Assembly: GCF_901686465.1 (NCBI RefSeq)
Contig: NZ_LR594487.1
Span: 1,547,650-1,611,649 of the forward strand
DNA from: Halorubrum sp. DM2
Lineage (GTDB): Archaea > Halobacteriota > Halobacteria > Halobacteriales > Haloferacaceae
Length of the DNA stretch: 64,000 bases
Reading direction: 5' to 3'
Position numbers and translations under genes: made by a program. The notes below the pieces were generated by a model. It was not told where the DNA came from and searched no databases. It saw only the letters and a program-made list of their open reading frames with translations. Below, in pieces: positions 10,300 through 61,905 of this stretch. Position 1 is the stretch's first letter; every line of letters starts with the position of its first letter.

Positions 10300-12579
<2,280 letters not shown>

Positions 12580-12592
12580 TTATAAATGAACG

Positions 12593-12918
12593 CGCGGTGC
12601 GGTCGGCGCGCCGGTGAGCGGCCGCCACCGGCGGCCGCGAACCGCCCGCGAGGGAGTCAGTCGGCCGGAGCGACGCGGAGGCCGACCGACGAGGCTGGGG
12701 AGGTGTGAGGTGCGGGGCGGTTGCGGTCGGGTGGGACTCGAAGGGGCAGTCGCGAGGCGGGCGCAGGCGTTCACGAGAGCGAAGCTCTCGTGAGCCAATC
12801 AGAACGCAGGGCGTTCTGATGACGATGGAAGCACCGCAACGAGGGAGCGAACGCAGTGAGCGACCGAGTGAGGCGCGCAGCGAGCGTGCGCCCGCCTCGC
12901 GACTGGGGCTTCGGTGGT
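12593..12918 (+). ncRNA. Candidate structured RNA, copy A of a four-copy intergenic element
   Basis: No protein-like frame is credible. In order: hairpin GCGGCCGCC-ACC-GGCGGCCGC (12618-12638); hairpin GTCGGCC...GGCCGAC (12660-12686); the conserved block GACGAGGCTGGGGAGGTGTG (12688 on); CGAAG-GGG-CAG; a 19-bp stem pairing CAGTCGCGAGGCGGGCGCA (12747-12765) with TGCGCCCGCCTCGCGACTG (12887-12905); and GGGGCTTCGGTGGT at the end. Inside the long stem are two perfect 10-bp hairpins, TCACGAGAGC-GAA-GCTCTCGTGA (12771-12793) and ATCAGAACGC-AGG-GCGTTCTGAT (12798-12820). CGAAG and CTTCG also pair across a symmetric GGG/GGG internal loop. A TTTATAAAT box (12579-12587) is placed to start a transcript near 12605. 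Conserved sequence plus compensated stems in all four copies suggest RNA; a DNA-level element is the alternative. Confidence 0.55.
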
Positions 12919-12950
12919 GTTCGTGCCAATCGGTCGTTTATAAGAACCCA
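12903..12950 (+). promoter_or_regulatory. CTGGGGCTTCGGTGGT motif, 18-bp spacer, TTTATAAG box
   Basis: The 3' end of the structured element (CTGGGGCTTCGGTGGT) is followed after exactly 18 nt by TTTATAAG. The same motif-to-TTATAA spacing occurs twice at the third-base-pair-rich copy near 19.7-19.8 kb on the other strand. A second motif copy lies at 12972-12987 without a TATA-like follower. The fixed spacing suggests a promoter with an upstream activator site, or a conserved processing region. Confidence 0.5.
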
Positions 12951-13148
12951 TTACATCGTACAGCCGAGCGGCTGGGGCTTCGGTGGTATTCTCCGTCAGT
13001 CCAGTGACAACGATGCGCGACAGAATCGCCGAGACGTTGGGGCGGTCACCGCACCGCAACTAGCTTTTGACAGAAGAGCGGCTGGTCCTTCCAAAGCGTT
13101 CACCGCAGAATCGTCGTTCAGGTATAAACGCCCGACTGCGACGCCACT

Positions 13149-13166
13149 GGATCTCTTATAAGATCC
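13149..13166 (-). terminator. Possible hairpin downstream of the amidohydrolase gene
   Basis: GGATCT-CTTATA-AGATCC forms a 6-bp stem with a six-base loop 18 bp beyond the end of the minus-strand amidohydrolase gene. It has no T-tract, so a role in termination is only suggestive. The rest of 12990-13184 contains no credible gene. Confidence 0.3.
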
Positions 13167-13184
13167 CCAACGGAACCGGATCCA

Positions 13185-14369
13185 CTATTCTACGCGCTCG
13201 CCGCGCGCGAACACCGCGTCGGGGTCCCGCCACGCCTCGGCGTCGGCGTTGGGGTCGGAACCGAGGACGACCAGATCCGCCCGATATCCCTCGGCGACGC
13301 GCCCCACGTCGTCGAGTCCGAGCAGGTCGGCGGCGTTGACGGTGGCGGCTTCGAGGGCCGCGTCGGGGGCGAGACCGTACTCGACCATGTGCGCCATCTC
13401 CTCGGGAATGTCACCGAAGAAGTTGAACGGCGTGCCCGCGTCGGTCCCCATCGCGATGGGGACGCCGGCCTCCAGCGCGTGGTCCCAGGCGTCGTCGAAG
13501 CGGTCCGCGGCGTCCTCGGCCTTCGCGACGGCGTCTTCGGGGATGCCGGCCTCGACGCCGTTCTCGACGATGCCGCGGAGCGCGCTCGCGGTCGGCACCC
13601 AGTAGGTGCCGCGCTCGGCCATCATCTCGGCCGCCTCCCGGTCCATGAACGTCCCGTGTTCGACGCTGGAGATGCCGGCCTCGACCGCGTTCTTGATCCC
13701 CTCCTCGCCGTGGGCGTGGGCCGCGGTCGGGGTGTTCGTGGGGGCGGCCGCGTCGGTGAACGCCGCGAGTTCCTCGGGTGTGAGTTCCGGTGCGCCCGTC
13801 ACCGCGCCCTCGGTGAGGACGCCGCCGGTGGCCATACACTTGAGCACGTCAGCGCCCGCCTTCAGCTGCTCGCGGGCCGCCTTCCGCACCTCCGCGGGAC
13901 CGTCGGCCTCGCGCCCGAACCAGTTGCCGTGGCCGCCGGTCATGATCACGTTGCGGCCGCACGCGAGCACGCGCGGCCCGGGGATGTCGCCGGCGACGAC
14001 CGCCTCGCCGGCGTCGAGCGCGAGCGTCCCCCGGCTCCCGAGGTCACGGACGGTCGTGACGCCGGCCTCGACCGCCGCCGCCAGATTGCTCGCGGTCCGG
14101 TAGCTCGCCGTGTAGTCGCTGTCGGAGACCGCGGTCGCGACGTCCGGGCGTCCGTCCATCATCACGTGGACGTGGGCGTCGATCAGCCCGGGCGCGACCA
14201 CCCGGCCGCTCGCGTCGATCCGCGTGAGGTCCGCGTCCGACCCGTCGTCGATCGCCTCCGCGACCGTTTCCGGGTCGCCGACCGCGACGACCTCGCCGTC
14301 CGCGACCGCGACGTCCGCCTCACGAGTCCCGTCCGCGTCCGCCACGCGACCGCCTTCGAACACGTACAT
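13185..14369 (-). CDS. Metal-dependent amidohydrolase (imidazolonepropionase/prolidase-like)
   Basis: The 394-residue protein belongs to the amidohydrolase superfamily. The beta-sandwich start (MYVFEGGRVADADG) is followed by DAHVHV (H66 and H68), a probable carboxylated or metal-bridging lysine in LKCMATGG, metal histidines in AHAHG and EHGTF, and the catalytic aspartate in MGTDAGTP. This set is typical of the subgroup that includes Xaa-Pro dipeptidases and imidazolonepropionase-like enzymes; the true substrate is not evident. I chose ATG 14369 because it begins exactly at the conserved N-terminal strand; the frame is open 28 codons further upstream without conserved features. Confidence 0.9.
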   Translation of the reverse strand: MYVFEGGRVADADGTREADVAVADGEVVAVGDPETVAEAIDDGSDADLTRIDASGRVVAPGLIDAHVHVMMDGRPDVATAVSDSDYTASYRTASNLAAAVEAGVTTVRDLGSRGTLALDAGEAVVAGDIPGPRVLACGRNVIMTGGHGNWFGREADGPAEVRKAAREQLKAGADVLKCMATGGVLTEGAVTGAPELTPEELAAFTDAAAPTNTPTAAHAHGEEGIKNAVEAGISSVEHGTFMDREAAEMMAERGTYWVPTASALRGIVENGVEAGIPEDAVAKAEDAADRFDDAWDHALEAGVPIAMGTDAGTPFNFFGDIPEEMAHMVEYGLAPDAALEAATVNAADLLGLDDVGRVAEGYRADLVVLGSDPNADAEAWRDPDAVFARGERVE

Positions 14370-19727: not shown

Positions 19728-19777
19728 TTTATAAATAGATTATCGACGCGGAGACCACCGAAGCCCCAGCCGGGAGG
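19728..19777 (-). promoter_or_regulatory. Duplicate of the element's 3' end with TTTATAAAC box
   Basis: On the minus strand GCCTCCCGGCTGGGGCTTCG GTGGT (25 nt, 19753-19777) repeats exactly the 3' end of copy B (19823-19847). Both copies are followed after 18 nt by a TATA-like box: CTTATAAAG for the first and TTTATAAAC for the second. Confidence 0.6.
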
Positions 19778-19821
19778 CTATATGACGCAGTAACTCTTTA
19801 TAAGTCACAGATCGACACGGG

Positions 19822-20086
19822 CACCACCGAAGCCCCAGCCGGGAGGCGGACGCACGCTCGGAGCGGTCCTCACTCGGTCGCTATCGCTCCCTCGCTGCGG
19901 TCCTACCGTCGCCTGCGTCCGCCTCCCGGCTGCCCCTTCGATTCCCGCCCCGCACCGCACAGCACAGCCCCGCACCTCACACCTCCCCAGCCTCGTCAGC
20001 GGCTCCCGTTGGTCGCCGCTGACTCCCTCGCGCGGCGCTCCTCGCGCCCTTAAAAGGGCGCTCGGAGGCGCGCGCCACCGCGGATC
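19822..20086 (-). ncRNA. Candidate structured RNA, copy B
   Basis: Read on the minus strand the element starts GCGGTGGCGCGCGCC, about 20 nt after a TTTATAAT box (near 20089-20098). It then shows hairpin GCGCCCTT-TT-AAGGGCGC (20044-20061), hairpin CAGCGGC...GCCGCTG (19997-20021), the block GACGAGGCTGGGGAGGTGTG, and a perfect 19-bp stem pairing CAGCCGGGAGGCGGACGCA (19914-19932) with TGCGTCCGCCTCCCGGCTG (19836-19854). It ends in GGGGCTTCGGTGGT. Compared with copies A and D, the long stem differs at three positions and every change is compensated on the other arm. The interior of the stem lacks the two hairpins present in copies A and D. Confidence 0.55.
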
Positions 20087-20161
20087 TGATTATAAATAGC
20101 CGCCGCTGGTCACGTTCGAGTGAAGTTTTGCGAGGGAAGAACGCTCCGAGAGCGCCCTTCC

Positions 20162-51176: not shown

Positions 51177-51433
51177 GCGGTGGCGCGTGCCTGCGAGCGG
51201 CCGGAGGCCGCGAGGAGCACGCGCGAGGGAGTCGCTGGCTCCCGGAGCAACGCGGAGGGTGCCAGCGACGAGGCTGGGGAGGCGTGAGGCTGTGCGGTTG
51301 CGGTGCGGGGTGGAAATCGAAGGGGCAGCCGCGAGGACGAAGACGCGCGACGTAAGCACCGCAGCGAGAGAGCAACGCGAGCGAGCGAGGAGCACAGCGA
51401 GCGCATCAAGTCCTCGCGGGTGGGGCTTCGGTG
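51177..51433 (+). ncRNA. Candidate structured RNA, copy C
   Basis: Starts 20 bp after the hisB stop with GCGGTGGCGCGTGCCTGCGAG. It shows an 8-bp stem GCGCGTGC (51183-51190)/GCACGCGC (51217-51224) around hairpin GCGGCC-GGA-GGCCGC (51197-51211), hairpin GTCGCTGGC...GCCAGCGAC (51231-51269), the block GACGAGGCTGGGGAGGCGTG, then CGAAG-GGG-CAGCCGCGAGGAC (51326-51338) pairing with GTCCTCGCGGGTG (51410-51422, one mismatch) and GGGGCTTCGGTGG. The long stem is shorter here than in copies A, B and D, and its interior has no hairpins. No separate promoter is seen; it may be the 3' part of the hisB transcript. Confidence 0.55.
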
Positions 51434-51468
51434 GACGTGTCCGCAGCAGCAACTGCGCCGTATCGAGC

Positions 51469-51532
51469 GGCTGGGGCTTCGGCGGTCTCCGTCACGCTGG
51501 CCGCAACGCAGTTTGCTGCCGAGCATTTATAA
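51469..51532 (+). promoter_or_regulatory. Second 3'-end motif and TATA box before the YkgJ gene
   Basis: GGCTGGGGCTTCGGCGGT (51469-51487) repeats the element's 3' motif about 50 bp downstream of the first. A TTTATAAC box at 51525-51532 follows after a 38-nt spacer and is 25-33 bp upstream of ATG 51558, the normal promoter position for that gene. Confidence 0.55.
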
Positions 51533-61598: not shown

Positions 61599-61905
61599 GC
61601 GGTGGCGCGTGCCTGCGAGCGTGCCGCCGAAGGCGGCCGCGAAGCAGCACCGCGCGAGGGACGCCGCGAGCGAAGCGAGCGGCGAGGCTGGGGAGGTGCG
61701 AGGCTGTGCGGTGCTGTTCGGCGGGACTCGAAGGGGCAGCCGGGAGGCGGGCGCAGGCGACGTAAGCACTGGAAGGAGCGAACGAAGTGAGCGACTGAAG
61801 CGCGTGGTTCGAGACGCCAAAGGCGTCTCGTCATCACGAAAGGCGCGGAGCGCCTTTCGAACGACAGCGAGCGTGCGCCCGCCTCCCGGCTGGGGCTTCG
61901 GCGGT
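61599..61905 (+). ncRNA. Candidate structured RNA, copy D
   Basis: Starts 30 bp after the MutS-like stop with GCGGTGGCGCGTGCCTGCGA, almost the same first 20 nt as copy C. It shows hairpin GCCGCC-GAA-GGCGGC (61623-61637), hairpin CGCCGC...GCGGCG (61662-61684), the block GCGAGGCTGGGGAGGTGCG, CGAAG-GGG, and a perfect 19-bp stem CAGCCGGGAGGCGGGCGCA (61737-61755)/TGCGCCCGCCTCCCGGCTG (61874-61892), then GGGGCTTCGGCGGT. Two perfect hairpins sit inside the long stem: CGAGACGCC-AAA-GGCGTCTCG (61810-61830) and CGAAAGGCGC-GGA-GCGCCTTTCG (61837-61859), in the same place as the two in copy A but with different sequence. No TATA box is seen just upstream. Confidence 0.55.

Follow-up and report, generated by a model that had tools for sequence, protein, structure and literature searches.

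Dispersed three-hairpin elements in the intergenic regions of Halorubrum and their relatives across the haloarchaea: a candidate structured-RNA family

Four unlinked intergenic sites in a 64,000-nucleotide stretch of the Halorubrum sp. DM2 genome (hereafter referred to as the window) share the same ordered layout of hairpins and linear blocks, and a sequence-only reading of the window had proposed that they are copies of an undescribed folded RNA. The locus raises the question whether the stems are maintained by selection, in which molecule they would act and with what probable biological role. The four sites (12593-12918, 19822-20086 reverse, 51177-51433 and 61599-61905) were verified at these positions and strands with the same order of blocks in each, and the arms of hairpin 2 are complementary in every copy despite their differing letters. 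A scan of the window found CGAGGCTGGGGAGGYGYG and TCGAAGGGGCAGYCGSGAGG free of mismatches only at the four sites, with 0.07 occurrences of the latter expected at up to three mismatches. The parts of the four copies are given below.

12605-12913, + strand: body of copy 1 (covariance-model match 12688-12915, 109 bits)
12605-12647, 12656-12690 and 12739-12913, + strand: hairpins 1, 2 and 3 of copy 1
12648-12655, 12691-12712 and 12713-12737, + strand: GCGAGGGA, conserved block and G-rich linker of copy 1
12579-12584, + strand: TATA-like TTATAA of copy 1, about 26 nt 5' of the body
12770-12822, + strand: double-hairpin insert in hairpin 3 of copy 1
12914-13184, + strand: tail of copy 1, with degenerating repeat units, reaching the stop codon of the amidohydrolase gene
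13185-14369, - strand: amidohydrolase gene facing copy 1
19828-20077, - strand: body of copy 2 (predicted RNA fold -159.8 kcal/mol, z -7.05)
20032-20077, 19995-20023 and 19828-19940, - strand: hairpins 1, 2 and 3 of copy 2
20024-20031, 19973-19994 and 19942-19972, - strand: GCGAGGGA, block and linker of copy 2
20091-20096, - strand: TATA-like motif 5' of the body of copy 2
19755-19827, - strand: tail of copy 2, first unit of 69 bp
51181-51430, + strand: body of copy 3 (covariance-model match 51267-51432, 133.6 bits)
51181-51222, 51231-51269 and 51318-51430, + strand: hairpins 1, 2 and 3 of copy 3
51223-51230, 51270-51291 and 51292-51316, + strand: GCGAGGGA, block and linker of copy 3
51431-51485, + strand: tail of copy 3, unit of 51 bp
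61603-61900, + strand: body of copy 4 (covariance-model match 61681-61902, 106.9 bits)
61603-61653, 61662-61683 and 61729-61900, + strand: hairpins 1, 2 and 3 of copy 4
61654-61661, 61684-61705 and 61706-61727, + strand: GCGAGGGA, block and linker of copy 4
61805-61864, + strand: double-hairpin insert in hairpin 3 of copy 4

Read 5' to 3' on its + strand, the element consists, often after a TATA-like box, of hairpin 1 (apical stem perfect, sequence variable), GCGAGGGA, hairpin 2 (variable in both length and sequence), CGAGGCTGGGGAGGYGTGAGG, a variable G-rich linker with GGGYGGGACTC at its 3' end, and hairpin 3. The latter is built from a CRAAG/CTTYG foot, an internal loop GGG/GGG, a 13-20 pair stem and, innermost, a ladder in which tandem G-A separates steps of two pairs each. 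It is followed by TGGGGCTTYGG and then, in Halorubrum genomes, by tail units of 51-69 bp arranged in tandem. The GGGGCTTCGGTGGT that had been taken for the end of the element is in fact the start of this tail of repeat units. The element measures about 250-330 nt, with hairpin 3 alone accounting for 110-175 nt, and copies 1 and 4 appear longer because of the double-hairpin insert in their hairpin 3. Such inserts, composed of two adjoining perfect hairpins of varying sequence, were also observed at differing positions within the bodies of L005, L033, L050, L053, L060, L085 and L088; they resemble double-hairpin elements and may represent a second repeat family. Separately, in L007, L071, L026, L038 and L048 the upstream flank adjoining the 5' edge contains a related sequence around TCGCTCAGTACAGG...GATCTGC, which may be a further small repeat with the element's edge as its target. 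No U-run, as would be expected of an intrinsic terminator, directly follows hairpin 3 at the 3' edges listed, and all-against-all comparison of the upstream flanks returned short matches only, with no longer shared upstream element or autonomous parent. Protein coding within the body was ruled out, as segment lengths take all residues modulo three.

The element is far more abundant than the four copies originally counted. In this Halorubrum genome (G000, one contig of 3,454,955 bases), one block was matched 139 times (70 on the forward and 69 on the reverse strand), whereas its reversed control was matched 6 times. A covariance model built on the 3' part gave 141 matches, a few of which are both strands of a single copy; the genome-wide count is thus about 139-141, at a mean spacing of about 25 kb. 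A region of 356 kb without copies (approximately 1,016,400-1,372,260 of the contig) departs from this spacing and could be an integrated secondary replicon, in keeping with the near-absence of the element from plasmids. In a first screen for exact or one-mismatch occurrences, the block was found in all 34 other Halorubrum genomes (14-177 each) and, at the same stringency, in two of the 24 genomes of the same order outside the genus; the named records that carry it are mostly Halorubrum, together with Haloparvum, Halobellus and Halorussus. A covariance model comprising the linker and hairpin 3 (R1) was searched against haloarchaeal genomes and gave matches class-wide, in 296 of 391 genomes and 71 of 86 genera, absence being weak evidence here as R1 was trained mainly on Halorubrum and few candidates were scored per genome. 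Ten fully examined genomes from several families contain 2-84 copies by this model. In genomes of other genera, hairpin 3 is found by itself, accompanied by hairpins 1 and 2, or in inverted pairs that face outwards. The counts given throughout mix orthologues, and some genomes may enter them twice.

The earlier statement that no named family matches is borne out by Rfam 15, in which the whole window yielded two tRNAs only above the gathering threshold, copies 1 and 3 chance-level matches only at E up to 5, and 20 loci from other genera a tRNA only. Searches of the open-access PMC literature found no description of the element, and the family is absent from the RNA catalogues searched. It resembles the RNA motifs found by comparative genomics (Weinberg 2010) in its covariation, wide distribution and lack of a known function, but differs from them in matching no Rfam 15 family; the main text of that survey makes no mention of haloarchaea (PMC2864571). 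None of the 101 copies contains a called gene, and the window copies are flanked by ordinary host genes (NAD-dependent DNA ligase, amidohydrolase, CTP synthase, histidine kinase, HisB-type dehydratase, DUF7531, MutS domain V protein and MgtE). HEARO/OMEGA RNAs of IscB and TnpB are likewise large and structured, and in some genomes many of them stand alone; the present element differs in its fold, in having no Rfam match and in the lack of a nuclease open reading frame in the copies examined.

Whether the fold is selected was assessed from the pairing of the stems. In hairpin 2, the pairing of most native arms extends for 9-14 bases; when arms of different copies are combined, it is mostly 3-5 bases long. 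The covariation claimed from these stems is weak evidence alone, because template switching in DNA palindromes also yields perfect new stems, and the case for a structured fold is carried by hairpin 3, where covariation proceeds pair by pair, together with its asymmetry between G-T and A-C. Double changes are seen at 34 of 54 predicted pairs in 45 bodies from this genome and other, mostly Halorubrum, species. Across families (52 copies), pairing is kept in 94.0% of the cells and compensatory double changes occur at 35 of 40 pairs, whereas sliding the partners by 1-3 columns reduces pairing to 31-40%. The covariation score of this larger alignment, 0.603 against 0.173 for shuffles (0/500) and 0.046-0.081 for slid partners, comes from an alignment fitted to the model, which favours covariation somewhat. 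Individual pairs of hairpin 3 change singly (one is CG in 35 copies, GC in 17 and TA in 8; another GC in 33, AT in 12, CG in 8 and TA in 4), and hairpin 3 escapes the template-switch objection for this reason.

An origin of the stems and their paired changes in replication, through template switching and palindrome correction and with no structural selection, would accord with the en bloc, nearly perfect change of the hairpin-1 and hairpin-2 stems (about 4% wobble) and with the occurrence of loop and inner-arm inversions. For hairpin 3, however, this reading is largely refuted by the pair-by-pair covariation across genera; the fixed internal loops and the G-A ladder, the inner-arm orientation (kept in 182 copies and inverted in 6, n=195) and the excess of G-T on one strand likewise stand against it, and as a general account it is hardly credible. 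It can be said with near certainty that the stem structure is under selection. The inversions, seen between the arms of inner hairpin 3 in L042, L050 (6031 +), L083, L104, L197 and L230, point to template switching at the palindrome or to recombination there.

The same stems indicate which strand folds. G-T pairs in hairpin 3 outnumber A-C 80 to 15, and 33 to 12 when two columns with a wobble consensus are excluded (p 0.002); the conserved mismatches are tandem G-A on the + strand, that is, C-T on the other, and the rarity of inner-arm inversion (6 of 195 copies) points the same way. Since G-T lies far above A-C and the tandem mismatches are G-A, the + strand is taken as the folding strand. 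RNA would be the natural reading of a folded + strand, with single-stranded DNA as the alternative, and the acting molecule is probably + strand RNA. Class-wide matches, covariation and the want of an Rfam family together lend support to the structured-RNA proposal. The computation shows a conserved fold of three hairpins on one strand, with hairpin 3 as its class-wide core, and the element is read as an ancient dispersed structured-RNA family.

The genomic surroundings were examined with a home-made gene caller based on codon usage, applied to 101 copies, with orientation classes counted for 100. The intergenic placement was confirmed, as 0/101 copies overlap a called gene. Orientations of the upstream and downstream genes are (+,-) for 38 copies, (-,-) for 30, (+,+) for 20 and (-,+) for 12; the convergent class thus makes up 38/100 against 19/231 (8%) of element-free intergenic regions (p 4e-10). 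Placement is thus mostly at gene 3' ends: about 58% of the copies closely follow a gene on their own strand, at a median of 38 nt. A role in 3' untranslated regions would not apply to all copies because the upstream gene points away in 42/100. In the small sample outside Halorubrum (n=37), no 3'-end preference was found (11 divergent, 10 convergent and 16 tandem). TTATAA or TTTATA occurs at -45 to -8 in 25/98 copies against 2/98 in a control window, the TATA-like motif being limited to about a quarter of the copies; a dependence of this motif on the orientation of the upstream gene was ruled out, none having been found.

The tails in Halorubrum are regular in length and phase. Unit lengths are multiples of three in 78/81 cases in this genome and 58/64 elsewhere, and in 99/133 copies the body lies a multiple of three nucleotides from the stop codon of a facing gene (p 6e-22 on the assumption of independence, which orthologues do not satisfy). 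Distances to the start codons of same-strand genes are random in phase (10/11/11), and no phase lock is clear on the 5' side. The stop codons facing the tails are native, with identical C-termini at empty sites. At one locus, tail lengths vary across species through 48, 72, 84, 99, 138 and 156 nt, all multiples of three, and varying in-phase tails are found, for example, in L040, L050 and their relatives L231-L250. Beyond the genus, L263, from another family, has downstream of 1649 a 45-bp unit ending in GGGGCTTTCTG in at least three tandem repeats, so that tails of length 3n exist outside Halorubrum as well. Among the non-Halorubrum loci L251-L280, the stop distance is in phase 2 for 10/16 facing genes, which hints that other genera may have a phase lock of another kind.

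Translation of the tail by stop-codon readthrough, as a C-terminal extension of the convergent gene, would explain the unit lengths, the phase of the stop codons and the G-first codon periodicity past the stops of facing genes, which is absent in controls. Against this, in-frame TAA occurs within the 57-bp units of other species, all three stop codons are in use, and differences by codon position (81/59/52) show no third-position excess. Phase and length are coding-like, but the lack of a third-position excess and the in-frame stops rule out the tail as a translated extension, and readthrough is considered very improbable; no genes fused in frame through a tail were found.

Single loci have persisted for a long time. 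Copy 1 is present in eight genomes (this one and seven others) in the same orientation, its site being empty in other genomes, which have short intergenic regions there; copy 2 occupies the same locus and orientation in seven (this one and six others). Occupied loci differ between species, and some empty sites keep apparent remnants, indicating that losses occur; single copies are thus dispensable. Within this genome (95 copies), no two copies exceed 91% identity and the median identity to the closest other copy is 86%, so that there is no sign of a recent burst.

The element can be compared with REP and BIME sequences of enterobacteria and pseudomonads, which are associated with RAYT Y1 transposases and are likewise dispersed intergenic hairpins in many copies, favouring gene 3' ends, occurring also as inverted pairs and conserving structure while stems vary; the dispersion of multi-copy intergenic hairpins on both strands is shared. 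The differences are its length of about 250-330 nt with three hairpins, the G-A ladder, the archaeal host and the 3' repeat tails, and a REP unit is some 20-40 nt with a GTAG/GGAG foot, as against the 110-175 nt and CRAAG/CTTYG of hairpin 3. The RAYT/Y1 family PF01797 is absent from G002, G004, G005, G016, G019 and G028, which have 71-128 copies, the last five being well assembled with 72-128 copies, and a Y1/REP drive was thus ruled out. Among haloarchaea, the MITEs, PATEs and small mobile repeats (SMRs) of Haloquadratum walsbyi are transposase-free, multi-copy and reported to be mobile, with inverted terminal repeats or near-terminal palindromes (PMC3119063). The present element differs from these in having no near-identical copies (best pair 0.91 over the full length, unlike the near-identical recent copies of MITEs) and in its deep structural covariation across genera. 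The foot of hairpin 3 is self-complementary, and no target duplication was recognised at empty or occupied sites, a comparison limited by a divergence of about 10%.

An ancient non-autonomous mobile element, comparable to REP/BIME sequences or to a SINE-like retroposed RNA, whose fold was recognised by a mobilising enzyme and whose copies spread long ago and now decay slowly, is nevertheless the main rival to the role proposed below. The equal dispersion on both strands, loci occupied in one species and empty in another, and the forms seen (complete elements, hairpin 3 by itself and inverted pairs facing outwards, as in REP and BIME) speak for it, and repeats of this kind usually avoid genes and promoters. 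It is opposed by the divergence of all copies, the absence of Y1 transposase from well-assembled genomes, the want of a recognised target duplication, the lack of an open reading frame in any copy and the pairing of stems kept in long-diverged copies. Mobile repeats also usually reach plasmids, on which only two partial matches were found among 72,556 records; IMG/VR viral contigs gave no exact match, by which a viral origin was ruled out. On balance, this origin is regarded as possible but doubtful.

A further observation concerns the foot of hairpin 3, which in one clade has changed from CAAAG/CTTTG to CGAAG/CTTCG at about 100 copies together, the partner strand changing in step. Counts of TCGAAGGGGCAG to TCAAAGGGGCAG are 127:4 in G000, 88:4 in G016, 91:3 in G021, 71:3 in G022 and 38:2 in G025, as against 24:161 in G065, 6:163 in G015, 14:133 in G029, 4:130 in G003 and 0:84 in G005, and shared loci differ in their foot by clade. 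Since about a hundred otherwise diverged loci changed in a coordinated manner, a shared trans-acting partner is proposed, and the switch suggests it as the simplest explanation; gene conversion limited to the foot motif is an alternative, and under the mobile origin a change of transposase could bring about the same switch.

A partner acting on DNA has also been considered. The element could be a chromosome-organisation site at which a nucleoid, gyrase or SMC-type protein binds the + strand hairpins or the G-rich block, with which its near restriction to the chromosome, the spacing of about 25 kb, the preference for convergent genes and the genome-wide coordination of the motif switch would agree. 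The asymmetric G-T over A-C and the G-A pairs suit a single folded strand and duplex DNA less well, and the copy-free gap of 356 kb also tells against such a site, which is judged unlikely.

The location shared with BIMEs and the coordinated switch of the foot are the grounds on which a 3'-end or gene-boundary RNA element with a dedicated partner is tentatively favoured, though with slightly less than even confidence. Transcription would proceed along the + strand of each copy, which would form the 3' untranslated part of the upstream gene (about 58% of the copies) or be driven by a TATA-like promoter of its own (about a quarter). A conserved protein would bind the folded RNA, chiefly at hairpin 3 with its CRAAG-GGG/GGG-CTTYG foot and its ladder of tandem G-A, and the folded RNA would mark, block or process transcript 3' ends at gene boundaries, especially where convergent transcription meets. 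This explanation leaves the in-phase yet apparently untranslated tails unexplained.

The element, absent from the catalogues searched, accounts for around 1% of a Halorubrum chromosome, with about 140 copies, each 250-330 nt long, in 3.45 Mb, and its fold is conserved across a class of archaea. To our knowledge, the ending, insulation and processing of haloarchaeal transcripts are poorly understood, and a structured element that recurs at convergent boundaries makes this question testable at many loci together, while the clade-wide switch of the foot offers a route to the partner protein through co-variation with its gene. A bolder and rather improbable extension is a class-wide network of tens to more than 100 RNA elements served by one RNA-binding factor, with tails kept in phase by a ribosome-coupled process; if true, the elements would mark gene boundaries and evolve as one unit, and the process acting on their tails would be one not seen elsewhere.
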